Position numbers and translations under genes: made by a program. A stretch of 64,000 nucleotides of DNA from Bdellovibrionales bacterium (GTDB lineage Bacteria > Bdellovibrionota > Bdellovibrionia > Bdellovibrionales > Bdellovibrionaceae), in NCBI GenBank assembly GCA_018266295.1, contig JAFEAQ010000019.1, positions 310,001 to 374,000 on the forward strand, in the 5' to 3' direction. Below are positions 35,287-55,874 of the stretch, piece by piece. The stretch's first letter is position 1. The number at the start of each line of letters is the position of its first letter. The notes below the pieces were generated by a model. That model was not told the DNA's origin. It saw only the letters and a program-made list of their open reading frames with translations, and searched no databases.

Positions 35287-35288
35287 GG

Positions 35289-38200
35289 TTAGAATCCAGT
35301 CACCCAAGTGATGTAGCAGTAGGCCGAGCCTCCGACAGTCACTTTTAAAATCGTATAAATAGATTGTGAACCAGCAGTGGTTACATCATTCGCCGGTACA
35401 TATTTTGAATTTGTACAATTAGCAAAGGTGTACTGGCGAGCCGTCGTGTCGGTAATAATCAATGTGTAAGAGCCGCCATCTTTCATGTTGTTCAATGTTA
35501 AGCTTGAAGATCCTGGCGATTGAACGACTTGGACGTTACCGTTATTAAAATCGACCGTGGCGCCTGTGCTTACAATGTATTGAGAAGCATACATCTGACC
35601 GGTATTCGTTTGAATATTTCCAGCAACTTCAAGCGTGCCGGTCATCGTATCGCCGATTTTGTTCACCGGAGTATAACCGAGTGATGGATTTGCGGACCAG
35701 CTCAGATTTCCTGAGGCATCAGAAACCATGATTTGATTGGCTGCCGGAGTTGAAGCCGGCAATCTCAAGACGTAACTGCTAGAAGCCGCTTGTGCTTGCA
35801 GAGTCACCGTGCCGGAGTTGACAAGACTTAAGCCCGTCATTGTACCAATACCCGAACCATCAAGGCTTAAGATTTTATTGGATTGGCCTGTTGTTGTTTT
35901 ATTGATTGTTACAGAGCCGGTGTTAGATACAGAAGAAATATCACCACCCAAAGACGTTGCTTGAGCGACGTTAGAGGCGCTACCAACCCAGATCTGACCG
36001 CCAGTCAGTGAGGTGCTCATTTTATTATTGAAGGTTACGTAGTCTGCATTGCTGAGCAAGCCGGCTGTCACTGTGCCCGAAGCTGAAGCCATCGGGATGT
36101 TCAGCGTGTGAGTTGAGGTCGCGAAGGACCAAGAGGGAGCATTGCCGGATGTGCCAGGCGTTGCAAATGTCTGAGAAGCACTCGTTAATCCATTTAATGA
36201 AGTGATGCCTGCGCCGGCTGCAGCAAGAGCCGTCCAGGTAGTGCCGTTGTTGAACTCCACATTACTATTCGTCGTGTTATAGCGGATCAAGCCGGCAGTG
36301 CTGGTAGGCTGTTGGGCGGTTGTCCCTGCAGGCAGACGAATGGCGTCAGTCTTACCATTGAAGTCCATTGAGTAGGACGGGGACGCGGTGCCGATACCAA
36401 TGTTACCTGCAGAGTTGATCGTCATGCGAGAGGTCGCACCAGTCATAAAGTTCAAACTGTACGTATCAATTAAACCTATCGTAGCATTGGCTCCGAAGCT
36501 GTTGCCGCCATTGACGAAGGCGTTAGCCGTGTTGGACAGTCCGAGTGTGCCCCAATCGACGTATACGGAAGTGCCGGCTTTAACGAATCGATACACTGTT
36601 GTTGAACTCGCAGTCCGAGTGCCGTTGATTGGAGAAAATACTCCATCAGCCAAAGTAGATCCAGCATCCTGAAATGTACACTTTGTCGTCGTAGCGCCGG
36701 TGACAACCACCGTGTAGTTACCACCTGATTGCATATTTAAAAGGTTTATCGAGGCAGAACAGTCATAGCTGGTAATCTGCGTGTTCCCTTTATTAAAGTC
36801 GATAGTATTAGTAGTTGAAGAGTAAGCACCGGCATAAATCTGACCGCCGCCGGATAAACTCGTTCCTCCACCACCTGCGGCGATATTGCCATTTCCAGCA
36901 CTTATTACAGTTGCGCCTGCGCCAGATGCAATGCTCGTATTGGCAAAAACACCATTTGAAATAGTCGTCGCACCATTGAATATCTTATTTCCAGTGATTG
37001 TTTGATTTGAACCATAGTCTACGAGGGAATTCCACGTCGAGCCATTGGTGTACTCAACTAAGTTGTTAGAGGTATTATATCGGAATAAGCCCGCAGCAAC
37101 CCCAGGCTGCTGCGCCGTCGTACCCGAAGGCAGACGAATTGCATCCGTTCGGCCAGTCATGTCCAGAGCGTAATTTGGAATCCCTGTCCCAATACCAACA
37201 TTTCCACCCGTACTCAGAGTCATCGTCGGGGTGCCATTGTTTGTAAAGAACCCGATGTGATGATTCGTGACGGAACCGAACTGGACTTGGGGGCCTCCGC
37301 TAATGGTGTTGTCGATAAAAATTGCAGCAGCCGCAGTGCCATCAGTCGCACCAAGTATATTGGTGTTAGCAGTTCCTTGGATAAGGGTTTTGTAGGTACC
37401 TGGGTTTGTGGTGCCAATTCCAAGGTTACCACTGTTTGTCAGCGTCATTCGAGTCGTGTTGTTTGTTGCGAAGTTCAAGTTGTAGTTGTCTTTTAAGCCA
37501 ATGGTCGCATTGCCCGCAAAGGAGTTACCGCCGTTAACGAAGCCAGTTGAAGAAGATAGGGGAGTAACCCAAGATAGGTTGCCAGCACCGTCAGTAGCCA
37601 TCACTTGGTTTGCTGAACCTGCAGTATTTGGCAATGTCAGTACGTAGTTCGTGAAGGCACCTGCTGTTTGCAGAGTAACACTGCCTGAGCCGGTCTGAAC
37701 ATTCAAACCTTTAACGTTAGCAACACCAGAGCCATCAAGACTCAAGATTTTATTCGAAGCTCCGGTTGTTGTCTTATCAATTGTTACGAGGCCTGCATTG
37801 GAAACAGAAAACACATCACCTGAAAGTGTGCGAGCTTCTGCAGCTCCTGAGGCATTACCAACCCAGAGTTGGCCAGAAGCAAGCACAGAGCTTTGCTTAC
37901 CCATCATTGAGACGTAATCAGCATTGCTGAGAAGACCTGCAGTGACAGTGCCAGAAGCAGAAGCCATTGGAATATTCAGCGTATGAGTGCCCGTGCTAGT
38001 GTTGCTTGACCAGCTTGGCAGGTTGCCGGTTGAGCCGATGGCGAGAGTTTGTGTGTTTACTGTCGCACCGTTAAAACTAGTGATTCCAGCGCCTGCAACT
38101 CCGAGAGTTTTTGTGGCAGAGCCGTCCCAATATTTAATGAGACCGGCGTCGTACCACATTTGACCGGCCACTGTTCCGGCAGTGCTAGTTGAACCGAGGC

Positions 38201-40841
38201 CGATATATTTACCGGCGGCCATCGAAAGATCGCCATTCATCACATCGCCGGCTTTATTGACCGGTGTATAACCCAAAGATGGCTGCACGGAGTTCCATCC
38301 AGAGCCGTTGTTGTATTCGACAACATTTGATGTCGTGTTGTAGCGAATCAGACCCGCCGCATTTGTCGGACGAGCCGCATCCGCACCCGAAGGCAGACGA
38401 ATCGCGTCTGTTTTTGAGCCTAGATCCAAGGTGTAAGCTGGCGCGGTGGTTCCAATACCAACATTTCCACCGCTGGCAATGGTCATTTGAATTGCACCGT
38501 TTGTCTTGAATCCCAAAGCGTAATTATCATTCAGACCAATTGTCGCGGCGGCACCAAATAAATTTCCGCCATTCACATAAGCCGTTGTTCCCGCCGTTGG
38601 TGTGAAACCCAATGCGGATACGACGTCGGCTGAAAGAAGGGCGCTTCCTGAAGTCACGCGGCCTTGAGCATCGGTTGCGACTTTAAAGTAGGTTCCTGCC
38701 GTGCCGGTATTTTTCAAAGACAGAACGCCCGAAGAGTCGATGGTGGCGTCTCCTCCGATGGTCTGAGCTTGCAACCCGTTGGCTGCATTACCGATCCAGA
38801 TTTTACCTTGCGATAAGGCAGGAAGTGAAAGCGAAGGAGTCGGAATCCAGCTCAGAGTTCCTGTCGCATCCACTTGCATAATTTGTGTTCCCGTCGGCGC
38901 CGTCGCAGGAAGTTTCAAAGTATAGCTATTAGAGGCCGTTGAGGCTTGAAGGGTCACGGCGCCGCTATTCACGAGCGCTAGTCCCGCCATTGTCCCGACG
39001 CCGGAGCCATCAAGGCCCAAGATCTTATTCGACTGACCGGTGGTTGTTCTGGTGACAGTGACGGCACCCGCACTGGTGATCGAAGAAATATCATTCGACA
39101 GGGTCATGGCTTCAGCGAAACCAGAAGCATTACCAACCCATACTTGACCCGCACCCAGTGTATTTGCTTGGCGGGATTTTAAGAACAAATAATCCGTATT
39201 GCTGATTAAACCGGCGTTGGCTCCGGCGTTGCCTGCGAGCGGAATATTCAATGTGTGCGTCGTGCCGGTTGAGGTAAACGCAGGATCGGTGCCCGTCGTA
39301 TTGACCGCTAGAGTTTGGGTTGAACCTGTGAGGCCATTGAAGCTCAAGATGCCGCCACCGGAAGTGCCGAGAGTTTTCACCGCAGAGCCGTCATAGTACT
39401 TGATCACGCCGCCGTCATACCAAACTTGGCCCGCCGTTGAGCTTGCTGCCGTCGTGTTTGGTAGAGTTAAATATCCGCCAGGCACCATAACGATGTTGCC
39501 GGCGTTGAGGATGTTGTTGCTATTCATGTTGATGGCACCGGACATCGTGCCGCCACTCAATGGTAAGCGACTATTGAATGAAACATAATCGGTGTTGCTG
39601 ACGAGACCCGCAGTCACCGAAGCCGTGCTCGCCATCGGGATGTTCAATGTGTGTGTGTTTGCTGCAAAAGTGTAGTTCAAAGCGGTGGCAGTGCCAGACG
39701 CAGCCGCCGCGAGGTTTTGAGCCGTGCCGGTTTGGCCATTCAGGCTGGTGATGCCGGTGGCAGCCGGTGCTTGGCAAGCCCAGCCTGTTGCGGTCCAAGT
39801 CAGAACTTCCGACGTCGTTGCACAAGTGAGATTCATGAATTTGCCAGAGGCATCTTTCAAAACCACGCCGGTGGTTGCGGCATTTGTGCCAGTGAAGTCC
39901 ATGTCGTTTGCGATGATCGTGCCGTCAAGGATGTTGGATGACGTCACTTTACCGACGCCGATCGTGACATTCACAGCACCTGTGCCAGAGGCAGTCACGT
40001 CGCCAGTCAGGCTCGTGATGCGATTCAGAAAAGTCGCGTATTCCGTATTGCTGATCAGACCGGCTGTGACGCCTGTGCCTGAAGCCATCGGGATTTTCAG
40101 AGTGTGCGTGCTAGTGGCAGAATTCCAAGCGGGAGCTGTCACCGAGTTGCCGGTATCGACAGCGCCGAAAGTTTGCGTCGTGGTTGTCAGGCCATTGAGT
40201 GAAGTCAGTCCTGTGCCCACGAGGTCATCGGCAATCACGAAAGTGCCGCTTTGGTATTTCAGAATTTTTCCGCTGGTGGCTCCGGTCATGTCGACAGGGA
40301 CGCCTTTGATTTTATCAACAACGACAGCCGTCTGCGTGCCGCTGACGTCACCGCTGAGCGCCGTGGTCAGGCGGTGAGCCTGACCCGCTTCAATCGCGTA
40401 AGGAACGGATTGAATATCCTGGCTGCTGAAAAGTTGTTGAGTAGTGCCGTCGTTGAACGACACGACGATCTTACGAGTTTCGGTTTTGGAAGATGGCGTG
40501 TAAGTACAGCTGCTGCCTGTGATGGTCGAGCCATCGTTCGAGAAAACTTTGTCGAGAGTTCCGCCGCTGGGAACCATGTTTGTTTGTTTCCCAATCACGA
40601 GAGAGAAATACCCGTTGGAGCCGGTCATGCTGACAGGGAATTCTTCGCGATAGAGAGTGCAAGTGCCGGTGGAGTCTTGAACGTCGACTCGGAAAGTGAC
40701 GCTGGCTGATTCGAGAGGTTGATTGCTAGAGTCGGAGATCACGCCATCAACGTTGAAGGTCAACGGCGACGCAAACGCGATGCTTTGAAAAAGCATTGCA
40801 AATGCAAAGACCTGAATGTTCACCCACGTTCTTGATAGCAT
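35289..40841 (-). CDS. Giant tail-fibre-like surface protein (possible MAT-type adhesive fibre)
   Basis: A 1,850-residue exported protein with a signal peptide (ending AFA, about residue 24). An N-terminal beta-domain (about 25-150, [20 protein letters not shown]) is followed by a long array of imperfect blocks: [51 protein letters not shown] and [15 protein letters not shown]. These resemble phage tail-fibre and collar repeats and Bdellovibrio proteins often named cell wall surface anchor. A beta-domain of about 100 residues ([11 protein letters not shown] to the C-terminus) occurs at the end and, in a second version ([14 protein letters not shown]), internally. This layout fits the mosaic adhesive trimeric (MAT) fibres that Bdellovibrio uses to recognise prey. 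That assignment is inferred from architecture. GGAG precedes the ATG. The RCC1 gene follows at 2 nt. Confidence 0.85.
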
Positions 40842-41139
40842 TAAACCGACTCCACTAGAGATCTTTTCGGTGAATTGTGGAGATTTGTTTAAGTGATCTT
40901 ATTGAAATTATGATAGTTTTAGAAAGAATCTCATCTTGAGACACCTCTAAGTATGCTCCCGACGAACAACCTGTCTAATTGAGCATTTCGAACAGATATT
41001 CGAGGATTTTAGAGCCACTCTGGGGCCTTTGTCTAAACTATGGACGGTCTAGGAGCTCTAAGAGAGGGCCAGAGTGTAGCAGGGTGGCTTGAGTACTGGA
41101 ATATTGATTGCTAATAATCCTTATGGAAGGATGTGTCCA
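40842..41139. other. Divergent spacer, no gene seen
   Basis: 298 nt between the divergent fibre gene and the lipid-kinase gene. It must hold both promoters, but no confident -35/-10 pair, repeat or RNA gene was recognised. The sequence is AT-rich next to the fibre start. Confidence 0.4.
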
Positions 41140-42156
41140 GTGAGAGTTTCCGTTGTCATCAACCCGAAAGCAGGGTCCGTAAATCCAGGTCTGATCGAGG
41201 AAAAGATCCGTTCGGCTCTTTTTCGCTGCGATTTGGTTTTCTCGAAGGCAAAGACTCTCGAAGAGATGGACCAGTTCCTGTGCGAAGAGCTCGCTCATAA
41301 AACCGACTTTTTCCTGATTTGTGGTGGCGACGGTACGGTTAACACGTGCCTGCAATACCTTGTTCGCGCGGAAGAGGACCTGACAAAAATTCCACCGATC
41401 GCGGTTGTGCGCTCGGGAACAGCGAATGACTTGGCTCACGAAATCGGCATCAGCCGCCGTATCGATCAAGCGGTTCGTAATATTCTTGAAGGTTCTGTTC
41501 GCAACATCGACATCATTCAAATTTCTTCTGGCGATAAAAAAGCGTTCATGCTGACAAACGGAGGCCTCGGGATTCCTGCGATGACAGCGGATTTGGCCAA
41601 CCAAGTGCGTTTCAGTTTGCAAAAAGTAGCGAACTGCCCGCAAACCGCCGGCTTCTTCAAATCGATTGCTAAAAACAGTTACCAACTGATCAAAAAAATC
41701 GGCCCCGGCGTTTACTCGTTGATGGTGGCTGAAGCTCTACGTACTTGGGATCCAAACGGCTGGGAGCTTGAGTTCGAACTTCCAGGCGATAAGAAATTTG
41801 CAACCAACGCACCGATCGTACTTGTGAACAATCAACCGAGCATCGGCAATAAATTCTTACCGGCACCATTTACTTCCAATACGGATGGCACTGTGAACTT
41901 GCTGTTGGCCGAAGGCCGCCGCGTTCGCGAACATCTTTCTTCATTCTTGCATTTAAGAAACGGAACCGTCAGCCAGTCGGACCGTTTCACTTCCTATGAA
42001 ATCACTGAATTCAAAGTCCGCTCTAAAAATCCGAGCCGTCCGATCACTTTCTTTGGCGATGGCGAGATCCTTTTTAAAGACGTGGCTGAATTATCCGTAA
42101 AATGCCTCCACAAAGGCCTTCCCGTCGTCGTGGGCTCTCCAGCATGGGAAAAGTAA
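41140..42156 (+). CDS. Lipid kinase of the diacylglycerol/sphingosine kinase family
   Basis: A 338-residue protein of the LCB5/DAGK catalytic family. VSVVINPKAG opens the nucleotide domain, FFLICGGDGTVN is the ATP-binding GGDGT motif, and AVVRSGTANDLA follows; the C-terminal beta-sandwich extends from about residue 160. It phosphorylates a lipid hydroxyl (diacylglycerol, ceramide, sphingoid base or similar). GGAAGG at 41125-41130 lies 9 nt before GTG 41140 but directly abuts an in-frame ATG at 41131, so the GTG start is preferred. The end overlaps the next gene by 13 nt. Together with the SDR and reductase genes downstream it suggests a lipid pathway; a ceramide kinase-like role is one option because SDR and LCB5-type genes also occur together in bacterial sphingolipid loci. 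Confidence 0.83.
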   Translation: MRVSVVINPKAGSVNPGLIEEKIRSALFRCDLVFSKAKTLEEMDQFLCEELAHKTDFFLICGGDGTVNTCLQYLVRAEEDLTKIPPIAVVRSGTANDLAHEIGISRRIDQAVRNILEGSVRNIDIIQISSGDKKAFMLTNGGLGIPAMTADLANQVRFSLQKVANCPQTAGFFKSIAKNSYQLIKKIGPGVYSLMVAEALRTWDPNGWELEFELPGDKKFATNAPIVLVNNQPSIGNKFLPAPFTSNTDGTVNLLLAEGRRVREHLSSFLHLRNGTVSQSDRFTSYEITEFKVRSKNPSRPITFFGDGEILFKDVAELSVKCLHKGLPVVVGSPAWEK

Positions 42157-43160
42157 AAATCTTGCTGACAGGTGGAACGGGCTTCCTTGGCAAACAAGTT
42201 TTGCCAAAGCTGCGTGAGTTTGCTGACGTCGATGTGATTTCGCGCTCGGCAAAGGCAGAGGTGCGCGGTGATCTGACTCGCTGGAACGCGGGCTTGGATC
42301 TCGAAGTTCTTAAAAAGAAAAACTACGATATCTTTATTCACCTAGCCGGTTTGTATGATCTTGGCGCCAGTCACATGGATGCTTTCCAGCAGAATGTGGT
42401 GGCAACGGGGACTGCTCTGAAAATCGCGCGGGAATTGCAAATCCCGGTTTTCATGAACGCAAGCTCGGTGGCGGCGGCGGTGAATTCGCCCCTGAAGGTG
42501 GTTCGTCCGTTTGATTTAAATTTTAGCCGCCCTTTTCCGGATCCTTACTCTGAAAGCAAGGCCCTGGGCGAGCAAATGATCCTGAATCAATCTCAGCATT
42601 TCAAACTGTGCATTAATATGCGCTTAGGTGTGCTTGTCGGTGATACGACCGATGGCAAGATCGAACGTATCGATGGACCATATCACGCGCCCCAAGCTCT
42701 GGAGCGAGTTCGTAAATTTATTGAAAGTTTTCCGGCGTCTTTCCCGTTGCCGGGTAAGAAACTGGGCCGTCTTCCACTGGTGCCGGTGGATAAAGCTGCC
42801 GAAGCCGTTGCAGGCTTTGCCAAGTGGTCGCAAGAGACGGAGGCTTTTGGTTATCAAAGTTTTCATGTCACTCCAAAAGAGGGTTTGATCGCTCGGGATT
42901 TATATCTCAAAACTCTGAAGCATCTTTTTATTCCACATCGTGGAATTACATTCGTGAATCGCGTGCCGAAGACCTTGCTGACAAAGGTATCGAAGTGGGC
43001 CGTGAAGTTCCCTGAAGAGCAATTGAATTATCTTTTGATGTTCCCGAAGTATGACTCGGCCTCGACCTGCGATGTACTTGGTGAAGGCTGGTGTCCTGAG
43101 TTTGACAGTTACGAAAAATCTTTCTGGCGAGGTTACAATGAGTACATTTCGAATCGCTGA
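42144..43160 (+). CDS. NAD(P)-dependent epimerase/dehydratase-like SDR
   Basis: A 338-residue extended short-chain dehydrogenase. ILLTGGTGFLG (residues about 5-15) is the NAD(P)-binding motif, HLAGLYDLG follows, and YSESKALGE contains the YxxxK catalytic pair. The domain resembles the N-terminal fatty-acyl-CoA-reductase/male-sterility type and OleD-type enzymes that act on long-chain substrates, as well as ceramide reductase-like SDRs. Its real substrate is unknown. The ATG at 42144 lies inside the lipid-kinase end (13-nt overlap), and its own end overlaps the acyl-ACP-reductase-like gene by 23 nt. This tight coupling suggests an ordered pathway. Confidence 0.85.
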   Translation: MGKVKILLTGGTGFLGKQVLPKLREFADVDVISRSAKAEVRGDLTRWNAGLDLEVLKKKNYDIFIHLAGLYDLGASHMDAFQQNVVATGTALKIARELQIPVFMNASSVAAAVNSPLKVVRPFDLNFSRPFPDPYSESKALGEQMILNQSQHFKLCINMRLGVLVGDTTDGKIERIDGPYHAPQALERVRKFIESFPASFPLPGKKLGRLPLVPVDKAAEAVAGFAKWSQETEAFGYQSFHVTPKEGLIARDLYLKTLKHLFIPHRGITFVNRVPKTLLTKVSKWAVKFPEEQLNYLLMFPKYDSASTCDVLGEGWCPEFDSYEKSFWRGYNEYISNR

Positions 43161-45273
43161 GATTAGTTTCGGACGCTCTCACTGGGATGATTCTTTTAGC
43201 TATGAATATGCGGGACACCGTTTTGAAGTTCAGCGCTTTGGCGTGAATTTCTCGGTGGATCTTGTAAAAAAACTCATTCAAGACCTGCGCACGGATGTCG
43301 ATGCTTTTGCCCTCAGCAGCCTGCCGCCGGTGATTAAACTCGACGAAAAAACCTACGTGCATCGCCAGTATCTTGAGATTATGGGGATGCCTAGCTCTGT
43401 GCCTTTGTGCGACGGTACAGGCCTTCGCGAAATTTCAAATCTGAATTCTATTATTAAGTTGATTGAATCCGGCAAAATCAGCCCGGAAGAAGGCGTCTTC
43501 TTCCCGGCGGCGATGCTCAGCACGGAACTCGAAGAGTTCTTGCGTAAGTCCTATCCTGGAAAAGTCTTCATCGGGGATGCGTACTCGATGCTGGGTTTGC
43601 CCTTGATGATTAAGGCTCCGGTACCGGGTTTGATGGCGTTCTCAAAGCTCGCGCTGAATGTGGCGAATTTTAAAGATCTGCGTAACAACACTCCGCTTGC
43701 GGAAACGCAGATTCAGAAAATGGGACGCTCGGTTTTGGCCTCACAAGTTGAAAAAGTTCAGTATGTGGCCAGCGACTATCCTTTCTTATTGCTCTTTGAT
43801 TCCGCGGTGGAATTTGTTCGCGGAAAGGACCTGATTGTTTGGTCTCATCATCCGGCAGCGGAAAAAGAAGCGCAAAAATACGGTCCGCGCTCTGTGATTA
43901 ATCTCTTCCCGGAAGAGTACAAGATGAGTCCGTATATGAATTACTCTGTCTTGGATGCGACCCTGCGCCTAGTGCACGGTAAGACGGCGCCATTGTCGGT
44001 GCCTGAGTGGGAACAGCTGATTAACCCACGCACAGAGGTCCGTCAGATGACTCGTCAGTACACGGTCAGTCATCGTACGTCGACGCAAGCGAAGATCTCT
44101 CATGGTATTAATCGTGTAAAAAATGTTTTATTGAAGAAAAAAGAACCGGACTTTGCGTTCGTGATTCATGCACTTTCCCATCGCGATTTATTGCGTATTC
44201 CAGGCTTGAATCTGCTTCATAATATGCCTAAGAAATTCAACGATCCTTTTGATCGTATTGTCTCAAAGGCTCCGCCGATTATTTACGGCAATATTCAGCA
44301 TGTGATCAGTAAAGAAACAGGCCGCGAAGTAAATGGTTTGATCTATGGTCTTTTCTCGACGCCAAAGGTTTTGAAGGAAGAAGATCCCGAGGTCACCTAC
44401 GCGAAAATCGAAAAGATCTGCTACGATGCCGCGAACCGTGGAGCAAAGATCATTGGTCTTGGAGCTTACACGAAAGTCGTGGGTGATGCGGGTGTGACGA
44501 TCAATCGCAATTCGCCAATTCCTGTGACCACAGGCAACAGTCTTAGTGCGAGTGCGACGCTGTGGGCTTTAGCTGAAGTCGTTAAAAAAATGAACCTTGT
44601 TAAGAGCGACCCGAATACAGGCTTGGTCGACGGGATGGCCATGGTCATCGGTGCCACGGGTTCTATTGGCAAAGTGTCTGCAAAACTCTTGGCTTTGACG
44701 TTTAAGAAAGTGTGCTTGGTGGCGCCTCGCCAAAACCGTTTGGATGAGTTGGCTGCAGAGATTCGTCAACTAGCGCCACGCTGTGAAATCCTGACGGCGA
44801 CGGATGCGAATGAACTGGCCGGTCAAGCAGATGCGCTGGTGACAGCCACATCGGCGTTTGATCAGAAGATCATTGATGTCATGAGATTAAAACCGGGCTG
44901 TGTGGTTTGTGACTGTTCTCGTCCGCTGGATTTTGATAAAGAAGACGCCAAGAAGCGCCCGGATGTTTTGATTATTGAATCCGGTGAAGTGCTTCTGCCG
45001 GGTCCGGCGCAAATCAACTGTGACTTGGGTCTTCCAGGTAAAGCGGTTTATGCGTGCTTAGCTGAAACGGCGTTACTTGCACTCGAAGGACAGTTTGAGT
45101 CTTTCACCATGGGCCGCGATATTGAGTGGAATAAAGTAAAGGGCATCTACAAAATGGCCCGTAAGCATGGCGTGGAACTCGCTGCTATTCAGGGCCATAT
45201 GGGCATCGTCTCAGATAAAGAGATCGAGCTCACTCGATCTCTTGCACTTTCGCGCCTGCGCGCAAAAAGTTAG
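43138..45273 (+). CDS. Long-chain acyl-ACP reductase-like protein with extra N-terminal domain
   Basis: A 711-residue protein, about twice the usual length. The C-terminal part (about residues 345-700) resembles cyanobacterial acyl-ACP reductase (AAR): the IIGLGAYTKVVGDAGVT and VTTGNSLSASATLWAL segments, a Rossmann motif VIGATGSIGKVSAK (about 503-516) and the catalytic Cys640 in VYACLAETALLALEG, which matches the FACFAE motif of AAR. AAR reduces fatty acyl-ACP or acyl-CoA to fatty aldehyde. No aldehyde deformylating oxygenase is nearby, so alkane production is not supported. Residues 1-345 are not recognised; they contain WSHHPAAEKEAQ and similar motifs and may activate or bind the acyl substrate. 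The ATG at 43138 follows GGCGAGG and overlaps the SDR end by 23 nt. Confidence 0.8.
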   Translation: MSTFRIAEISFGRSHWDDSFSYEYAGHRFEVQRFGVNFSVDLVKKLIQDLRTDVDAFALSSLPPVIKLDEKTYVHRQYLEIMGMPSSVPLCDGTGLREISNLNSIIKLIESGKISPEEGVFFPAAMLSTELEEFLRKSYPGKVFIGDAYSMLGLPLMIKAPVPGLMAFSKLALNVANFKDLRNNTPLAETQIQKMGRSVLASQVEKVQYVASDYPFLLLFDSAVEFVRGKDLIVWSHHPAAEKEAQKYGPRSVINLFPEEYKMSPYMNYSVLDATLRLVHGKTAPLSVPEWEQLINPRTEVRQMTRQYTVSHRTSTQAKISHGINRVKNVLLKKKEPDFAFVIHALSHRDLLRIPGLNLLHNMPKKFNDPFDRIVSKAPPIIYGNIQHVISKETGREVNGLIYGLFSTPKVLKEEDPEVTYAKIEKICYDAANRGAKIIGLGAYTKVVGDAGVTINRNSPIPVTTGNSLSASATLWALAEVVKKMNLVKSDPNTGLVDGMAMVIGATGSIGKVSAKLLALTFKKVCLVAPRQNRLDELAAEIRQLAPRCEILTATDANELAGQADALVTATSAFDQKIIDVMRLKPGCVVCDCSRPLDFDKEDAKKRPDVLIIESGEVLLPGPAQINCDLGLPGKAVYACLAETALLALEGQFESFTMGRDIEWNKVKGIYKMARKHGVELAAIQGHMGIVSDKEIELTRSLALSRLRAKS

Positions 45274-47953: not shown

Positions 47954-50635
47954 TTACTCCAAAATTTTAATGGTACCGGCTTTGCCATCCATACGAATGC
48001 GCATGCCCGTCTTCAAAGTCTTTGTCAGACCGGGAATGCTGACGATGGCAGGAATTGCCATTTCACGGGCGACGATGGCGGAGTGTGAAAGTAAACTTCC
48101 GCGTTCCACAAGCAACCCAGAAATGGCCGGGTAGAGTGGGACCCATCCTGGATCTGTTCTCGCTGTTACGAGAATTTCGCCGTTGAGATCCAGATTATCT
48201 GTTGGATTCAAAATCACTTTCACAGTTCCTTCGAGAACACCCGGGCAGCACGGTAATCCCTTCAGATCGCAGTCTTCGCCTTCAGCAATCGTCATTGAAA
48301 CTTCCTCTTCTTTCACGAAAGGATTGTTCCAGTACACCGCTCCGCGAGTCATAATGCGTGGATCTGTGTCCTCTGTAAACTTCGCGTAATCCGCTTTGCG
48401 CAAATTTACAAAGGCCTGAAGATTGTAAGAGGGCAATGTTCCATTATAGATCCCGAAGACCTCTTCAATGGTGAGCCAGAAAATATCGCGACCGTTTTGA
48501 AGAGCGCCAAGATTCGCCAAATCTTCGCCGATATTTTGGAAGATCGTGCGGGCAATTCCATAAATACGTGTCCGAGCAAAACGGGTGTTTTCACGATTCT
48601 TCACGGCCTTGCGGGCGTGCTTGAGAACCCAGAAGTAAATCTTTTTACGCACTCCCGAGAGATGTTCTTCGACTTTCTTTTCAGAGGCCGCACGCAGAGA
48701 TTTCTCACGAGAATCATCGTGGACTTCCACTTTGCCGGCCTTTAGGTAGTTTTTCAGGCAGACAAATAAGTAAGACGGGTCGGTTAGCAAATCAATTTCT
48801 TCGAGCTTCATCTCACTCATGCAGCGGAAACCGAAACGATCGAGATAGTCGAGAACCATATTATAGAAATTGCGGTGCTTCGATTGATTCAAGGCTTCGA
48901 GGCCATCTTTTGGATCTGTGGTTTCGATGATTCGCTTCAGATCCGCATCTTTGATCGCCTCCGCGGCTAAACGTAGCAAAGCTTTCGTCGGCTCCGCACT
49001 TTCAAGCCCGCCTTCACCCGCAAGCAAGTCATTCTGGATGGTCGAATCCAATTCTGACAACCACGTGGTCGTGAGCTTACGTAAAAGACCGAAGTGAACC
49101 ATGCAAAGGAAATCATTGATGATCGGTGCTTTCCAACGGCCGAGCATATTGCGCTCGACATCCAAGTACACGCGGAGGAGCTGATCTCCGCGCATGCTTG
49201 CCAGCGGCATCGCACGGTACTTGTCGTAGTCGCGGTGGAAGGTCTTTAGGAAGTCATCCACCACCGTTTGGATCGTGAAGTGATACTTAATAAAGTTAAA
49301 GCCCGTCACCATTTTACGGAGTTTGCCCGTGAAAGTGTCCCAAGACGGATGGGGTTTAATACGATTTGCGATTTCATCCGTCAGGCCTTCAGAAACGCCC
49401 ATCATGGTTTCCATGAACTCGCGGTTCTGTTTAAAGCCCGGAAGAACACCGACCAGTTTGTACCAGTTAAAGAGATTGTAATAAACGCGGCCATCGATAC
49501 TTCCCAACATGTAGCTGAGATAAGAATCCATGTCCTTGATGATTTCATTCGGCACGCCCAAAACTTCACAGAACTGAACGTAAACGGCTTTATAGTTTCT
49601 GAGCGCGAAGCTAAAGCTCAACGGTGACGTCAAACCACCGTATGATTCGATGATATTGGAGTTGTCCCAAAGATTCGGATAACCAACCAGGTCTGATTTC
49701 AAGTTTGTCACAGGACGTGTTTGCAGAATATAAAACGTACCGTTTTCAATCGCCCACTCGATATCTTGTGGACGGTGATACTGTTCATGAATCAAATGAC
49801 CGAGCTTATATAAACCACGCAGTTCTTTGTCATTTAAAGACGGTTGAAGGACGAGCTCTGCGGACACAGGATGCAAGCTGCAGTGGCCAGAGCTTGATTT
49901 CTTCATCATCTCTTTCTTTTCGATGATCTCAGATTTCACAAGATCACCGGTGTGCTGGTGCAACCAGTAAGAATCCGCATCCAGAGCGCCTGAGACAAGG
50001 CCTTCACCAACGCCATACACAGAGGACACTACATAGTTATCAAGCTTGCCGGTCACAGGATCGCAGGTAAACATCACACCGGATTTTTCCGGATCAATCA
50101 TGCGTTGAAGAACCACTGAAACCGAAATCTTGTGCGGATCGATCTTGTTTTCTTTACGGTAAATAAGACCACGCTCAGAGAACGCTGAAGCCCAGCACTT
50201 TTTAATGTACCTTAAAATGTCTTCTTTGCCATTGACGTACAAGAAACTAGAGAGCTGGCCGGCAAAGGAGTGCGAAAGACCGTCTTCGTCCGCCGCCGAA
50301 GAGCGCACAGAAAAGATTTTATCAGCTCCCAGCATTTGCAACGCCTGATCGATGCTCGAAGACAGCATGGCGGTTGTATTGCTATCGGCGAAGAGTTTTT
50401 CAATTGCGGCTTCGGCCTCTTTGGCAGTGATATGGCCGTGAACGAACTTTTCTACCAACTGGTAAAGATCTTGATGGATGCCGGCACTCTTCACAAAATC
50501 TTGGAAGTAGCGACGGCCAAAAACCACCCACTCAGGCACGGGGATCCCGGCTTTCGTCATCAAGTACAGGTTAAAGCCCTTACCGCCGGATTCATTTTTG
50601 GCAAAGAAGTGCGTGGAGTTTTTCGTTACAAGCAT
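47954..50635 (-). CDS. PEP-synthase / rifampicin-phosphotransferase-like dikinase
   Basis: An 893-residue protein. The N-terminal ATP-binding domain of the PPDK_N type (about 1-310) shows SVRSSAADEDGLSHSFAGQL, SGVMFTCDPVTG and IEWAIENGTFYILQTRPVT. A middle domain (about 320-790) is not one I recognise. The C-terminal swivelling phosphohistidine domain (about 800-893) carries His851 in GSLLSHSAIVAREM. The PEP/pyruvate TIM barrel of true PEP synthase is missing, so the order of ATP domain, substrate domain and His domain is that of rifampicin phosphotransferase. It likely transfers the ATP beta-phosphate via His to a small molecule, or has been adapted to a biosynthetic step. The ATG lies 1 nt after the UbiA stop and is preceded by GGGAG. 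Drug resistance is possible but the context favours biosynthesis. Confidence 0.82.
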   Translation of the reverse strand: MLVTKNSTHFFAKNESGGKGFNLYLMTKAGIPVPEWVVFGRRYFQDFVKSAGIHQDLYQLVEKFVHGHITAKEAEAAIEKLFADSNTTAMLSSSIDQALQMLGADKIFSVRSSAADEDGLSHSFAGQLSSFLYVNGKEDILRYIKKCWASAFSERGLIYRKENKIDPHKISVSVVLQRMIDPEKSGVMFTCDPVTGKLDNYVVSSVYGVGEGLVSGALDADSYWLHQHTGDLVKSEIIEKKEMMKKSSSGHCSLHPVSAELVLQPSLNDKELRGLYKLGHLIHEQYHRPQDIEWAIENGTFYILQTRPVTNLKSDLVGYPNLWDNSNIIESYGGLTSPLSFSFALRNYKAVYVQFCEVLGVPNEIIKDMDSYLSYMLGSIDGRVYYNLFNWYKLVGVLPGFKQNREFMETMMGVSEGLTDEIANRIKPHPSWDTFTGKLRKMVTGFNFIKYHFTIQTVVDDFLKTFHRDYDKYRAMPLASMRGDQLLRVYLDVERNMLGRWKAPIINDFLCMVHFGLLRKLTTTWLSELDSTIQNDLLAGEGGLESAEPTKALLRLAAEAIKDADLKRIIETTDPKDGLEALNQSKHRNFYNMVLDYLDRFGFRCMSEMKLEEIDLLTDPSYLFVCLKNYLKAGKVEVHDDSREKSLRAASEKKVEEHLSGVRKKIYFWVLKHARKAVKNRENTRFARTRIYGIARTIFQNIGEDLANLGALQNGRDIFWLTIEEVFGIYNGTLPSYNLQAFVNLRKADYAKFTEDTDPRIMTRGAVYWNNPFVKEEEVSMTIAEGEDCDLKGLPCCPGVLEGTVKVILNPTDNLDLNGEILVTARTDPGWVPLYPAISGLLVERGSLLSHSAIVAREMAIPAIVSIPGLTKTLKTGMRIRMDGKAGTIKILE

Positions 50636-50636
50636 C

Positions 50637-51512
50637 TTAAGCTCCCATCACAAAACAGATTAGAACGTAATGTAAAAGCAGATAAACCCCGGTGCCGTCA
50701 CGGAAGATTTTAGCCATCTTCAATTGGGGATTCAGCGCATAGCCAACGCTCATTAAAGTATAAAGGACAGCCCCGGCAATCAGCCAATAAAAGCGCGAGT
50801 GATTGCTGAGCGCGACCCAAGAAAGGATAATGCCGATCAGAACCTGCGACCACGACAGCAACCAAGCACCTTTAGGATTAAAGATATTGCTATAGCTAGG
50901 AACATGCGGGCGTTCCTCGTTCGGTGCGAAGGTTTTACGGGCAAATTCAAACAAATTAAAGAAACACCAGTTCATCAAGAAGAAACAAACATCTGCGAAT
51001 TGAATTTTTTGAGGATTGAAGTTCACGATCGCGGTGGCTGCGGAAACTCCTAAAAGAACGCTGACGAAGGTGTGAGTCACGGCATAAGTGGTCAAGTGAG
51101 GTCTCAGGATATCGCCGATAAAGAACTCTTCGTACATCAGCAAACTGTAACCAATGGCCATCACATGGATTAAGAACGGCCAGAAACCCAAGAAGGCTGC
51201 AAGGACCACTTCAAAAAGGATCATCCAGAAGAGGCCCTTTTTAACTTGCGGCACAGTCAGCACTCCGCGGGCCAGGGGGCGGGTGGGGTTTACTTTCAGA
51301 TCCACTTCGTAGTCTTTGATTTCATCAAAGCAGCGCATACGAAAGAAAAAGCTCAGCATCAACATCAGCACGCAAATAAAACGGCCGGTGTCGAAGGTGT
51401 AGCTCGCGGCCTTCGACAAGTACAGGCCGTTTGCCAGAGTAAAAATGAAAATCATCGGAAGGTAACTTCCGGGACTAAAACGCTCTTTGATGAGAATCAG
51501 CCAGTTACGCAA
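50637..51512 (-). CDS. UbiA-family prenyltransferase
   Basis: A 291-residue integral membrane protein with about eight hydrophobic segments. The first Asp-rich motif, FDEIKDYEVDLKVNPTRPLARG (residues about 62-83, Asp63, Asp67 and Asp71), is that of UbiA-type prenyltransferases; the second, usually DxxxD-like, is weak (near residues 190-200). These enzymes transfer a prenyl chain to an aromatic, phosphoribosyl or glycerol-type acceptor. The acceptor here is unknown. It overlaps the hydrolase-ligase gene by 8 nt, and the dikinase gene follows after 1 nt, so all are coupled. Confidence 0.87.
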   Translation of the reverse strand: MRNWLILIKERFSPGSYLPMIFIFTLANGLYLSKAASYTFDTGRFICVLMLMLSFFFRMRCFDEIKDYEVDLKVNPTRPLARGVLTVPQVKKGLFWMILFEVVLAAFLGFWPFLIHVMAIGYSLLMYEEFFIGDILRPHLTTYAVTHTFVSVLLGVSAATAIVNFNPQKIQFADVCFFLMNWCFFNLFEFARKTFAPNEERPHVPSYSNIFNPKGAWLLSWSQVLIGIILSWVALSNHSRFYWLIAGAVLYTLMSVGYALNPQLKMAKIFRDGTGVYLLLHYVLICFVMGA

Positions 51513-53916
51513 TGATCGCTCCCGGGTCTTTCAGTTGATCACGCAAAACTTTGTATTCCACTTTCGAGTGATGGCGAGGATCCATTGGAACCGCTTTGAC
51601 GAACTTGATTTGATCTACCGGGATTTTGTTCTTGGCAAAAACACGGTTGATTTCTTTTTTTGCCGCTTCAAAATCAAAAGTCGCTTTGTCGATGTCAGCT
51701 TTCAGCTCCACACATGCATAAGTCGCTTGGCCGAGGGATTTGTCATCCATACCAAGGAACGCGCAACGATAAGCAAACGGCATACGCTTCAGCAAGACCT
51801 CGGCGCGAACCGGGAAGTAGTACTTACCACCACGCTCAATCGCGTTGTTCGTGCGGCCGACGATCCAAAGATCTTTCTTAGAGTCGATATAAGCCAAATC
51901 ACCGGTTCTATGCCAAACGCGGTTTTGACCGTCCATAATTTTAGTGGTCTTAAACGCGTCGGTATTATTGTAATAATCACGGCAAACGTGGTCCCCCGTA
52001 CAGATGAATTCACCCACTTCGCCATTGGGAACTTCGATTTGTGACCAAGAAGAGCCTTTGAGCTCAACCGGACCGTCTTTAATACGGATAAATTTGTAAT
52101 CGATATCTTCGCTGATATGACCTACATTCACGCCTTCCTCGATGATCTCAGGATCCGCTGAAGGATTCTCTTTCAGCATGTCGCGGCCTTCGATGTGAGC
52201 CATCGGTTCTGCCTCTGTCGAACCGTACAGGATCCAAAGATCTGTTTGGGGTGCGATCTCATAGAAGTTCTTAACGTCATCTTTAGAAATCGGTGCGCCG
52301 CCTGTAACAACTCGGCGGAGCTTATCAAGTTTAATGCCGTTTTCTTTGCAGTAACGAGCTAAGCCCACAAGCATGCTCGGTGAAAGTGTCGTGCAATTGA
52401 TGCCTTCATTGATAATCTGACAAGCCAAGATCGCCGAGTCGCGCTCGGAAGGGGCCGCCAAATCAACCGCTGGCAAGATCGTCGTCACACCGCTTGCCAA
52501 GTTGTTCAAACTGAAGATCGGAAATGCCGGCATGTCTTTGTCTTTCTCTGTGTAAGGAATGACGTGAGAAAGCGCGTGATGCTGAGCCGACAAGAAACGA
52601 TGAGTGCGGTTGGCGCCTTTTGGCTTCCCTGTAGAACCAGTTGTGAAAGTAATCAAAGCTGTGAACTCACTTTCAACCGAGGCAATCGGCGAAGCCGTTG
52701 GTTTCAATAATTCAGGGAAGCGGTGAGTGCACTTGTCACCCGGGCCGTAGAGAACACGGATGGGCATTGATTTAAATTCTGGAACTTGATCGACGAGCGC
52801 AAAAGCCTGCTGGAAACTAATCATCGCTTTCGGGCCCACGCATTCGGCAGAAGCTCCCAAGTGGTGGCTGCGCGCCCAAGAATCCAAGAACACGGCAATC
52901 GCGCCGATACGCTGAACCGCGAACATCGCCGTGTACATATCAAGGCTCATCGGCAAGAAGATGATCACGCGATCACCTTTTTGAATACCGATATCCAGCA
53001 GTCCTTGGGCAAAAGAATTAATTCTGGCGGCAAAGTTTTTGTAAGAGATCTCATCGTGTTTAATCGGAGTTTTCGGTGAACCGTCCCATTGGGCCATGGA
53101 TTCACGGTTGGCCCAGCGAAGAGCGACGCGGTCCGGGAACTCCCGCAAATGCTTTTCCATGTAGTTAATGACGTTGTTACGTTCATCACTTCCAGGGTAG
53201 TAACCGATTTTTTGATTGCTAGTGCTCACAGTGGCTCCTTCAGCGGAAATTTCAGAAATAATCTTCTCAGGGTGGCTCCAGAGGAGTCCGTGGCCCGTCG
53301 CAGGAATGGTTTTCATCTTCGCCTGTGGGTATTTACCCAGCACGGCAGTTTGGATCTCGTTACTAGAGATCTTATCAAGCTCTCCGTACAAAACGGTGAG
53401 TGGAACATCGGTGATGTCCGCTTCACGCCATGGGTTGTCTTGCATTTTGATTTTGTTGACGACCGTCTTTTGCCAAACCGTCCAGTCTTGAAAGTGATTG
53501 TGCAAAGTCTGAAAGTAAGGAAGGTCTTTCAGCGTATTTGGGTGAATCAGGTCACTGACAAAAGCGTCTTTAGCTTTTTTGTGGTTGGATTTAATCAAAG
53601 TATCGCCAAGGCCTGGCATTTTCAGCAAAGTCGTCGCGAGTCCCGAAAGTGTGCGCTCGGGTTTTACATAGGGAGCCACCAAAATTACTTTTTCGATGTG
53701 GTTTTTAAGCTCTTTTAGATTTTTCAAAATCAAATAAGAGCCCCACGAGTGGGCCACGATGATTTTCTTGTCACTTCCGCGAGTGACTTCTTGTTTCCAG
53801 CCATCGCTGTAAGCGTCGACCGCTTTGAATTGGAATTGTGAACCGATTTTGTCGCGTAAAATGTTCCAGTCGGCCGGAGAACCGGGGTTTCCGTGCAGGG
53901 CAATAATGGTTTTCAT
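51505..53916 (-). CDS. Alpha/beta-hydrolase fused to OleC-like adenylating enzyme
   Basis: An 803-residue two-domain protein. Residues 1-235 are an alpha/beta-hydrolase (oxyanion HGNPGS; nucleophile Ser57 in VAHSWGSY; His in ATGHGLLW). Residues about 245-803 are an acyl-adenylate-forming enzyme with the P-loop-like TFTTGSTGKPKG (about 420), YGSTEAEP, HRTGDLAYID, and a C-terminal MDPRHHSKVEYK segment. The ligase most resembles OleC, the beta-lactone synthetase of long-chain olefin synthesis (motifs FPIFSLNNLASGVTT, VVTGGAPISKDDV, PxDxRHxxK). OleBC fusions are known, but OleB uses an Asp nucleophile, while this hydrolase has Ser, so a different chemistry is likely. OleA is absent. The start overlaps the formyltransferase stop (ATGA). 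Confidence 0.83.
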   Translation of the reverse strand: MKTIIALHGNPGSPADWNILRDKIGSQFQFKAVDAYSDGWKQEVTRGSDKKIIVAHSWGSYLILKNLKELKNHIEKVILVAPYVKPERTLSGLATTLLKMPGLGDTLIKSNHKKAKDAFVSDLIHPNTLKDLPYFQTLHNHFQDWTVWQKTVVNKIKMQDNPWREADITDVPLTVLYGELDKISSNEIQTAVLGKYPQAKMKTIPATGHGLLWSHPEKIISEISAEGATVSTSNQKIGYYPGSDERNNVINYMEKHLREFPDRVALRWANRESMAQWDGSPKTPIKHDEISYKNFAARINSFAQGLLDIGIQKGDRVIIFLPMSLDMYTAMFAVQRIGAIAVFLDSWARSHHLGASAECVGPKAMISFQQAFALVDQVPEFKSMPIRVLYGPGDKCTHRFPELLKPTASPIASVESEFTALITFTTGSTGKPKGANRTHRFLSAQHHALSHVIPYTEKDKDMPAFPIFSLNNLASGVTTILPAVDLAAPSERDSAILACQIINEGINCTTLSPSMLVGLARYCKENGIKLDKLRRVVTGGAPISKDDVKNFYEIAPQTDLWILYGSTEAEPMAHIEGRDMLKENPSADPEIIEEGVNVGHISEDIDYKFIRIKDGPVELKGSSWSQIEVPNGEVGEFICTGDHVCRDYYNNTDAFKTTKIMDGQNRVWHRTGDLAYIDSKKDLWIVGRTNNAIERGGKYYFPVRAEVLLKRMPFAYRCAFLGMDDKSLGQATYACVELKADIDKATFDFEAAKKEINRVFAKNKIPVDQIKFVKAVPMDPRHHSKVEYKVLRDQLKDPGAIIA

Positions 53917-54659
53917 ATTTTCGTCCCTTTGAATTTAAGCTTAAAGAAATCCAAGATCGTAGGGTTTGAGCGGTAAATGGTTTTCTCTGTTTTATTATTT
54001 TCCATTCCAGTGACGGCTCCGGCCTGGGCGATATCCGCGAGAACCTCTTTCGCGGCAAGAACCTCTTGCTTTGAGCCATGATAGATCGACTCAAGATAGT
54101 CGGTCTTTGCGGTTTTCACTTCGACCACCTTCAGAATCGCTCCGGCATCGAGCTTTGAAGTCATTTGGTGAATCGAAAAGCCGGAAGGTGTTTTTTCCAA
54201 GTGCGCCCAGAAGTCGCACATGAGTCCTCGTTGGTCTGGAAGCAGCCCATGGTGGATATTGATACAACCCAAGCGGGGAGTCGCCAAAAGTTTTTTCTTA
54301 AAGAACGTGCGAGTGCGCGCATTCAGAATCAAATCAATATTTTCGCGACGAAGAATCTCGAGAGCCTCTTCAGAGTTGAGATCATCAACGATAAAGAATT
54401 TTTTAGAATGACCCGTGTAGGCTGATTCTTTATGAGAAAGAAGATCGTTGAAGTAGTTTTTCAAAAGCTGCAGGCCCATGCGTGGGCCGGCGCCGGTCAG
54501 CACCAAGGCCAAACCTTGAAGAACCATTTTCCAATCGCGGTTGTCGATGATCATGCAGCCGACAATATGCGGAGCCTCAGCAAGTCCGCAGACAAGCTGA
54601 TTGTAATTCTCCGGTACAAAAGTCACTCGCGACGTGACAAGAAGTGCACGCAAACTCAT
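53913..54659 (-). CDS. Formyltransferase-fold enzyme
   Basis: A 248-residue protein with the formyltransferase hydrolase-like fold of Fmt, PurN and sugar N-formyltransferases. The catalytic segment NIHHGLLPDQRGLMCD has the Asn and His of the N-H-D triad, and SKLDAGAIL has the Asp. It is shorter than Fmt and lacks the tRNA-binding OB domain, so it is not a second Fmt. It may formylate an amine from 10-formyl-tetrahydrofolate; the acceptor is unknown and could be an amino-lipid made by the neighbouring genes (inference). First gene of the minus-strand operon; the ATG is preceded by GGAGAAAG. Confidence 0.8.
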   Translation of the reverse strand: MSLRALLVTSRVTFVPENYNQLVCGLAEAPHIVGCMIIDNRDWKMVLQGLALVLTGAGPRMGLQLLKNYFNDLLSHKESAYTGHSKKFFIVDDLNSEEALEILRRENIDLILNARTRTFFKKKLLATPRLGCINIHHGLLPDQRGLMCDFWAHLEKTPSGFSIHQMTSKLDAGAILKVVEVKTAKTDYLESIYHGSKQEVLAAKEVLADIAQAGAVTGMENNKTEKTIYRSNPTILDFFKLKFKGTKI

Positions 54660-54776: not shown

Positions 54777-55874
54777 GTGGCTCAAGAGTATTTTTCGGAT
54801 TTAAACTATACGTTGGCCAATGAAGACACCCGTGTTGAGTTCGACTTATTGCCAGAAAAAGTGTCCCGAGTTTTCAGTATCGCGGGATCGGGTGCGCGTT
54901 GCATGCCTCTCATTGCCAAACATCCGAAAGAACTCGACGTTGTTGATATGTCGGTGAGTCAGAATTATCTCTGTGAATTGCGTTTTGAGGCGATGAAAGT
55001 CCTGAGTTACGAAGAGTATCTCTTCCTGATGGGCTATCGTGGGGCGCTTCAGTCGAGTCCACAAGAAGGTGATGATCGTAAAGCGGTTTTCGAAAAAGTT
55101 CCGCTCAGCCCCGAGGCGAAAAAATACTGGAGTGAACGCAGTGCCGGCTGGGCCCCGCGCGGATTCATTTTGCTAGGACGTTGGGAATCTCACTTCCAAA
55201 AGTTGGGGTTTCTTTTCCGTGAAGTTCTTAAATGCGATTTCTCAAAAGTTTTTGAAGCTCAGTCTCTCGCGGAACAAGTTGAGTTGTATGAAAAGTACTG
55301 GCCTCACGTCCGTTGGAAGAGTTTCATTCGCGTGGCGGCCAGTGAATATGTATTTAATAAATTCCTCTACAAGGGCCACTTCAGCGGCCGCAGTGAGGCA
55401 AAAACCGAAGCGCGTGCTCCCTGGGAGTTTGTCACTCAGGAATTCGACCGTATTTTCCGGACGCAACTCGTTCGTAAAAACTATTTCATGCAGATTCTTT
55501 TCCTCGGAAAAATCGCCTACGAAGAGGGTCTTCCCCTCGAGGCACATCAGCATGTGTTTGAGCGAGTCAAAACGGCGCCGACAAAAGTGAATTACTTGCT
55601 CGGAAATCTGCTCGAGCATTTGCCGAAAAAGAACTACGATTTTATCTCGCTGTCGGACACGATTTCTTACCTTCCGCAAGAAGACGCCAATCAGATTTTA
55701 CAGCGTCTGCACGCGGAAACGAAATCCGGATCACAGATGGTGATTCGTTCGTTCATGCGCGCGCCAACGGCTCCGGATTTGAAGGGCTGGCAGGACTGCC
55801 GAGATAAAGATTTATGGGCTCAGAAAATCGATGGAACAGGTGTCTATCAATTTCACATTTTCAAAAAGTCTTAG
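54777..55874 (+). CDS. DUF3419 / BtaA-like 3-amino-3-carboxypropyl transferase
   Basis: A 365-residue protein starting at GTG 54777, preceded by AAAGGA at 54764-54769. YFSDLNYTLANEDTRVEFDLL at the N-terminus, with LNY and NED, is characteristic of DUF3419. FSIAGSGA (residues about 33-40) and LDVVDMS (about 53-59) form the SAM-binding part. The family includes BtaA, which moves the aminocarboxypropyl group of S-adenosylmethionine to diacylglycerol in betaine-lipid synthesis; no BtaB-type methyltransferase is next to it. It diverges from the formyltransferase gene, suggesting a shared regulator. Longer upstream frames run antisense to the formyltransferase and are not preferred. Confidence 0.8.
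   Translation: MAQEYFSDLNYTLANEDTRVEFDLLPEKVSRVFSIAGSGARCMPLIAKHPKELDVVDMSVSQNYLCELRFEAMKVLSYEEYLFLMGYRGALQSSPQEGDDRKAVFEKVPLSPEAKKYWSERSAGWAPRGFILLGRWESHFQKLGFLFREVLKCDFSKVFEAQSLAEQVELYEKYWPHVRWKSFIRVAASEYVFNKFLYKGHFSGRSEAKTEARAPWEFVTQEFDRIFRTQLVRKNYFMQILFLGKIAYEEGLPLEAHQHVFERVKTAPTKVNYLLGNLLEHLPKKNYDFISLSDTISYLPQEDANQILQRLHAETKSGSQMVIRSFMRAPTAPDLKGWQDCRDKDLWAQKIDGTGVYQFHIFKKS

Follow-up and report, generated by a model that had tools for sequence, protein, structure and literature searches.

The DNA analysed here, referred to as the window, is a 64,000-nucleotide stretch from a Bdellovibrionales bacterium (contig JAFEAQ010000019.1, positions 310,001 to 374,000). It contains a gene whose product joins an alpha/beta hydrolase to an adenylate-forming ligase (Table 1). 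This fusion gene is the second in a coupled four-gene operon on the minus strand, which runs from 54659 down to 47954 in the order formyltransferase, fusion, UbiA-like protein and phosphoenolpyruvate (PEP)-synthase-like protein. The stop codon of the formyltransferase gene and the ATG of the fusion gene share the sequence ATGA, the UbiA-like open reading frame (ORF) begins inside the end of the fusion gene, and the PEP-synthase-like gene begins one base past the UbiA-like stop. The fusion gene is present in single copy in the window genome (4.2 Mb, rated 99.99% complete), and at about 75% identity its named relatives belong to Bdellovibrio.

A preliminary description of this DNA had called the fusion OleBC-like, with an OleC-like ligase half, a serine instead of the aspartate nucleophile of OleB, and no OleA. 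The ORF is indeed intact. Its first ~225 residues match an alpha/beta hydrolase in Pfam (about 30-220), and an AMP-binding domain follows at residues 254-649. Both the AHSWGS motif with Ser57 and the DPRHHSK segment (residues 779-785) are found in the protein. In an alignment, the Ser57-Asp181-His209 triad was kept in 22 of 22 hydrolase sequences, whether fused or encoded separately, and S57, D181, H209, D779, R781, H782, H783, S784 and K785 are all invariant in 14 fused homologues. Because of this conservation the motifs cannot be attributed to chance. An assembly or sequencing artefact was rejected as the source of the fusion, as the same join is present at 16 of 25 cluster loci, the window included. 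An AlphaFold2 model built for the whole fusion had a mean pLDDT of 54 and was set aside.

Table 1. Features of the fusion gene and of its neighbourhood in the window.
Feature	Position	Strand	Basis
Hydrolase-ligase fusion ORF	51505..53916	minus	803 amino acids, ATG start, one uninterrupted frame; homologues with the same fusion
Alpha/beta hydrolase domain, residues 1-230	53227..53916	minus	Pfam; predicted model and fold comparison
Adenylate-forming ligase domain, residues 246-797	51526..53181	minus	PRK09274, 365 bits over 246-793; trees
Ser57 codon, predicted nucleophile	53746..53748	minus	Same in 22/22 hydrolase sequences
Asp181 codon, predicted triad acid	53374..53376	minus	22/22 sequences; invariant in 14 fused homologues
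His209 codon, predicted triad base	53290..53292	minus	22/22 sequences; invariant in 14 fused homologues
D-P-R-H-H-S-K segment, residues 779-785, OleC-type C-terminal motif	51562..51582	minus	DxRH common to OleC/LstC sequences
Formyltransferase	53913..54659	minus	PF00551; N-H-D residues kept in 24 sequences; stop overlaps fusion start
UbiA-superfamily membrane enzyme	50637..51512	minus	PF01040 over cut-off; overlaps fusion end
PEP-synthase/PigC-like phosphotransferase, mobile-domain His	47954..50635	minus	NF004881, 1282 bits (cut-off 883); conserved LSHSAIVARE
YegS/diacylglycerol-kinase-like lipid kinase	41089..42156	plus	PF00781; part of conserved block
SDR reductase (NAD_binding_4)	42102..43160	plus	PF07993; part of conserved block
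Acyl-ACP-reductase/PigE-like reductase	43051..45273	plus	NF053554, 160 bits; TIGR04058, 59 bits; 4ppm, 6jzq; homology from near 43174
BtaA-like DUF3419 gene	54777..55874 (homologous part; open frame from 54432)	plus	PF11899, E 7.6e-58; co-occurrence

The position of the ligase half was analysed in two trees. Their OleC reference sequences came from the same phylum and owe the name to operon context, as the LstC sequences do to operon resemblance; no experimentally characterised OleC was among them. In a tree of 60 sequences, a branch with support 100/100 parted the 48 sequences of OleC, LstC and the fusion-ligase lineage from 12 ordinary adenylate-forming enzymes. The fusion-ligase lineage grouped with four distant sequences at 100/98, OleC formed a separate branch (99/96), and the union of OleC and LstC had a support of 93/77. 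A second tree, made by a quick search, gave support of 100 for the superclade, 97 for the fusion-ligase lineage, 97 for OleC and 98 for OleC plus LstC. It comprised 8 of the 23 ligase-lineage sequences, 9 of the 18 OleC sequences, all 4 distant ones, all 3 LstC sequences, the 12 outgroup sequences of the first tree and 23 further ones; sequences scoring above 310 bits with the ligase profile, falling outside 330-650 amino acids or repeating others were dropped. The resulting 35 ordinary sequences included FadD-type, acetyl-CoA-synthetase-like, nonribosomal peptide synthetase (NRPS), EntE, MenE and CaiC enzymes. The ligase profile had absorbed the OleC of locus L063, so that the profile score of this sequence is inflated; the profile was not used for tree placement. 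In both trees the ligase lies outside the ordinary acyl-CoA ligases, and therefore the branching among them by which the preliminary description expected its OleC claim to fail did not occur.

The residues agree with this placement. D345, F424, P571, G595, K659, H669 and R670 are common to the fusion ligase and OleC and absent or rare in ordinary ligases, and the D-x-R-H motif (D779, R781 and H782) is present in the OleC and LstC sequences and absent from all 12 other ligases of the tree alignment. The described likeness to OleC, DPRHHSK included, is thereby borne out. Four residues fixed in the fusion-ligase lineage are different in OleC (R437, N471, S566 and E570), the OleC counterparts of R437, E570 and N471 being Tyr, Leu and Phe, respectively; the four distant sequences also have Arg at position 437. 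The best NCBIfam model for the ligase was PRK09274 (365 bits, or 366.7 in a separate scan), below its cut-off of 478 and 146 bits ahead of the next model; the best generic ligase model for the fusion was PRK06187 (201 bits). Two OleC equivalog models scored 219 bits (cut-off 900) and 204 bits (cut-off 850); an oleABCD-encoded OleC of the same phylum also fails both cut-offs (404 and 444 bits). When an OleC from this phylum was searched against solved structures (E 1e-20), only ordinary adenylate-forming enzymes were matched. Membership of OleC proper was rejected, since the ligase branches apart and scores below the OleC and PRK09274 cut-offs. Judged by tree placement, the ligase half is a third lineage in the OleC/LstC clade, sister to OleC plus LstC and inside neither.

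The hydrolase half gave a different picture. In six OleB sequences aligned over the nucleophile site, the position of the serine is held by the Asp of HDWGG, and the haloalkane-dehalogenase model scored 17 bits with the window hydrolase versus 168 bits with a genuine OleB from this phylum. The weak best matches of the window hydrolase and five homologues were MenH, BioH, BioV, polyhydroxyalkanoate depolymerase and esterase models, and the sequence matched solved structures weakly (best E 1e-4, an epoxide hydrolase). We modelled the hydrolase separately (mean pLDDT 68, cap region poor). With this model, Foldseek returned dehalogenases, thioesterases and esterases mixed together at a root-mean-square deviation (rmsd) near 10. 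In a second fold comparison the top ranks were the CurM thioesterase (Z 17.9 over 154 residues, rmsd 2.1), SABP2/hydroxynitrile lyases with methylesterases, KAI2 and TesA, with Z about 16 to 18, and ClbQ was among the fold neighbours along with the CurM thioesterase and TesA. The chemistry is not settled by this ranking, in which structures differing by Z <1 are tied. By its triad and modelled fold the first half is a serine alpha/beta hydrolase, Ser57 being its predicted nucleophile. An OleB with a swapped nucleophile, or a displaced OleB, was rejected: the enzyme is not dehalogenase-like, Ser is present throughout the alignment, and true oleABCD genes sit elsewhere in related genomes.

Those genes were found by scanning 97 genomes with PRK09274. 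Nineteen genomes exceeded the cut-off, and the fusion lineage was always under it, at 348 to 390 bits. At 18 OleC loci, one of which (L107, 457 bits) is itself below the cut-off, OleA and OleB were encoded at all 18 and OleD at 17, the contig of the remaining one ending before OleD. Many f14 genomes hold such an OleC as well as a ligase of the fusion lineage. By contrast, relatives of OleA, OleB or OleD above 60 bits were encoded at none of the 25 cluster loci. The absence of OleA also holds genome-wide: using an OleA of the same phylum as query, the best match in the window genome was only 25% identical over part of its length, and the best OleB and OleD matches were 23% and 30% identical. 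The label OleBC-like therefore stands as an analogy and for the clade of the ligase, and falls for the hydrolase and for the pathway, as there are no oleA, oleB or oleD genes nearby.

Complete or nearly complete oleABCD operons (L063, L094-L108, L112 and L113) are common in several families of the phylum, often alongside the fusion cluster. Two further regions were observed in these searches. In genome G071 (L109:4285-11396), a ligase distantly similar to OleC is encoded next to a KASIII-like gene and two more AMP-binding genes. It lacks ole partners and possibly belongs to a separate natural-product cluster. Elsewhere in the window genome (G000:C4:608565-610928; loci L002, L004, L115, L117 and L132), an acyl ligase adjoins a KASIII-like gene.

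We next delineated the distribution of the fusion. When 144 genomes of the phylum were scanned with the ligase, 32 had matches at E <= 1e-60 and 27, from 14 genus groups, carried the fusion-ligase lineage at E <= 1e-120; weaker matches, OleC-type or distant, were left out of this count. The distribution is patchy inside one genus. Nine families were mapped over 26 loci and the window, 24 of these 27 being core-ligase loci. A formyltransferase is present at 24 of 24 core loci and the UbiA-like and PEP-synthase-like genes each at 23 (the contig of L039 ends). A distant 25th locus, L062, encodes the ligase and UbiA in one protein, has a GNAT acyltransferase in place of the formyltransferase, and has no hydrolase; the remaining two are L043, with an unrelated ligase, and the true ole locus L063. 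Over the 25 cluster loci the hydrolase is fused at 16, one of them (L061) frameshifted within the ligase; at 6 it is encoded by a neighbouring gene of its own, and at 3, two of which are Akkermansiaceae, it is absent. The window ligase is 64 and 62% identical to these two Akkermansiaceae ligases, groups with them at 99/94 and is nearer to them than to the fused f14 forms, and the tree needs three changes of the fused/unfused label. The operon has therefore probably moved between phyla, and the fusion probably arose more than once or was lost.

Variants of the arrangement were also seen. On a Roseinatronobacter plasmid, UbiA-like, PEP-synthase-like, DUF3419 and AMP-binding genes lie in one run, and the ligase groups with the distant sequences. 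Two hypothetical proteins without Pfam match (439 and 281 amino acids) are encoded there between DUF3419 and the ligase (L121:3853-6014), a pair that may replace the formyltransferase and hydrolase. Among Bdellovibrio relatives, at L038:6486-8267 and at the same position in L040, L044 and L045, a second AMP-binding ligase (593 amino acids) lies directly upstream of the formyltransferase gene; the two that were put in the tree, from L040 and L044, group with ordinary ligases.

The neighbouring genes have a lipid character. Motif residues are conserved in the formyltransferase, UbiA-like and PEP-synthase-like proteins; in the UbiA-like protein (25 sequences) the first Asp-rich motif is kept and the second has diverged. 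DUF3419 is encoded in all 27 ligase-bearing genomes and in 19 of 117 others (Fisher p 3e-17), and the acyl-reductase in all 27 and in 12 of 117 others (Fisher p 3e-20). Two genomes of genus g3 (G083 and G112) have DUF3419 and the reductase and no ligase match at the threshold used; within the phylum the ligase therefore seems to depend on the lipid block, not the reverse. A four-gene transporter-like set (LolA-like protein, FtsX-type permeases and ABC) adjoins the cluster at five loci (L052, L053, L055, L056 and L062). The block of B. bacteriovorus kdesi (L038) that holds the reductase and DUF3419 also contains a LolA-like gene, and L044 ends in part of one. The DUF3419 sequence had no match to solved structures at E 1. 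Residues about 40-368 of the reductase are conserved phylum-wide, yet lack a Pfam, NCBIfam or PDB sequence match. Further away in the window, 31789-35307 on the minus strand encodes a 1172-residue protein with 11 RCC1-type repeats and adjoins an ORF of 1850 residues (35289-40841).

Together these results suggest, as the reading that we tentatively favour, that the fusion is a carboxylate-activating enzyme with a serine hydrolase in cis, acting in a conserved pathway most likely for an N-formylated amino-acid-type envelope lipid. The cluster looks built to make and export a membrane lipid, not the hydrocarbons of the ligase's cousins. From the domains, triad, phylogenetic place, operon and co-occurrence we infer the following steps. 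The BtaA-like DUF3419 enzyme would transfer a 3-amino-3-carboxypropyl group from S-adenosylmethionine onto a lipid acceptor that the block of kinase, SDR and reductase would provide; to judge by the family of the enzyme, the lipid formed would have both its amine and its carboxylate free. The formyltransferase would cap the amine, which the GNAT enzyme in its place at L062 fits, and the ligase would adenylate the carboxylate. The acyl-AMP could then be captured by a nearby oxygen or by a UbiA-bound partner, and the PEP-synthase-like enzyme would provide a phosphoryl-driven step. The hydrolase would be accessory, given that several lineages encode it separately or lack it, and may serve in editing, trimming or ring opening of the product, which in some lineages the Lol-like transporter would carry to the outer membrane.

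Several points weigh against this proposal. The p-values for co-occurrence carry no correction for kinship, and the search for Lol-like genes found none in the cluster of the window itself. The steps given to the UbiA-like and PEP-synthase-like enzymes are predictions without an assigned chemistry, and the acceptor of the DUF3419 enzyme may be other than diacylglycerol. In addition, two Akkermansiaceae genomes had the formyltransferase-ligase-UbiA-PEP-synthase set and, in searches of which one had no positive control, neither DUF3419 nor the reductase. The DUF3419 product therefore cannot be the only substrate, which must sometimes come from elsewhere.

It is unlikely, though worth serious consideration, that the ligase instead couples its substrate to an outside partner through an amide or ester bond, for example linking an N-formyl amino-acid lipid with an amine or alcohol, the hydrolase being an editor of the type II-thioesterase kind. 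Not every lineage has the hydrolase and some encode it separately, which is often the case for editing hydrolases, and its fold neighbours include CurM thioesterase, TesA and ClbQ; however, Pfam and NCBIfam scans found no carrier protein or condensation domain among the operon proteins, and LstC acts within one molecule. So does OleC, the other of the two nearest lineages, which closes a carboxylate onto a hydroxyl of the same molecule (PMC7158056).

A route closer to the preliminary description, in which the ligase would form a beta-lactone from a beta-hydroxy acid and the serine hydrolase would open the ring by hydrolysis, without decarboxylation, also appears doubtful. The sister position to OleC/LstC in both trees argues for it, lipstatin-type operons likewise pair an OleC-type ligase with a formyltransferase, and the join is of the same kind as in the OleBC fusions reported in PMC7064751. 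Against it, OleA and OleD partners are missing at all 25 loci and a close OleA from the genome, the hydrolase is dispensable and not OleB-like, and three positions that OleC keeps as Tyr, Leu and Phe hold R437, E570 and N471, respectively.

By analogy with OleC, a bolder version of the favoured lipid pathway can be drawn, which we regard as a long shot: a ring-forming synthetase would take an N-formyl amino-acid lipid as its substrate, and an internal oxygen, that of the formyl group or another, would attack the acyl-adenylate to give an oxazolone or lactone. By this logic the N-formyl amino acid would yield an oxazolone and, in a speculative step, its acidic carbon would be the nucleophile for the UbiA-like partner; the fused hydrolase would open the ring, and the product would be a new outer-membrane lipid class of predatory bacteria with Lol-like export. 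An ordinary acyl-CoA ligase with an ordinary esterase in a housekeeping role is highly improbable, since the general AMP-binding fold and the weak PRK06187 match are outweighed by the exclusion from all 35 ordinary sequences at 100, the lead of PRK09274, and the patchy occurrence within one genus together with the conserved biosynthetic neighbourhood.

A literature search by titles and the starts of abstracts, with subscription papers mostly outside its coverage, found no paper describing this cluster, and comparison was made with five known systems. In OleBC fusions OleB precedes OleC, and the window protein resembles them in joining an alpha/beta hydrolase to an OleC-clade ligase. Such fusions are reported from Micrococcales and Granulosicoccus, and beta-lactones from ole clusters without oleB (PMC7064751). 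OleB is a subfamily III haloalkane-dehalogenase-type beta-lactone decarboxylase of a family with an aspartate nucleophile (PMC10503415) and works within oleABCD, whereas the window fusion has another, serine, hydrolase and another gene set. With the OleC beta-lactone synthetase the ligase has in common its sister position, the C-terminal DxRH motif and other residues, but it lies outside the OleC branch and under the model cut-offs, has OleC-kept residues replaced, and lacks OleA and OleD. The lst (lipstatin) operon, read for comparison on Streptomyces and Rhodococcus plasmids, also encodes an OleC-clade ligase near a formyltransferase. Its genes include two KASIII genes and an NRPS gene, a hallmark not found among the protein families of the window operon. 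Unlike lst, the window cluster has UbiA-like, PEP-synthase-like and DUF3419 proteins, and LstC forms a separate branch. The full-length DUF3419 neighbour resembles the betaine-lipid enzyme BtaA, but no methyltransferase BtaB was identified among the cluster genes. The neighbouring PPDK_N plus mobile-domain protein resembles PigC/RedH and PEP synthase, but falls in the separate PRK06241.2-2 model. Two outcomes have been linked with OleC-type enzymes, namely olefins and natural products of the beta-lactone type (PMC7064751). A third lineage, encoded with formyltransferase, UbiA-like and BtaA-like enzymes in a conserved cluster that predatory Bdellovibrionota share with some Verrucomicrobiota, suggests that there is a third, probably a membrane lipid.

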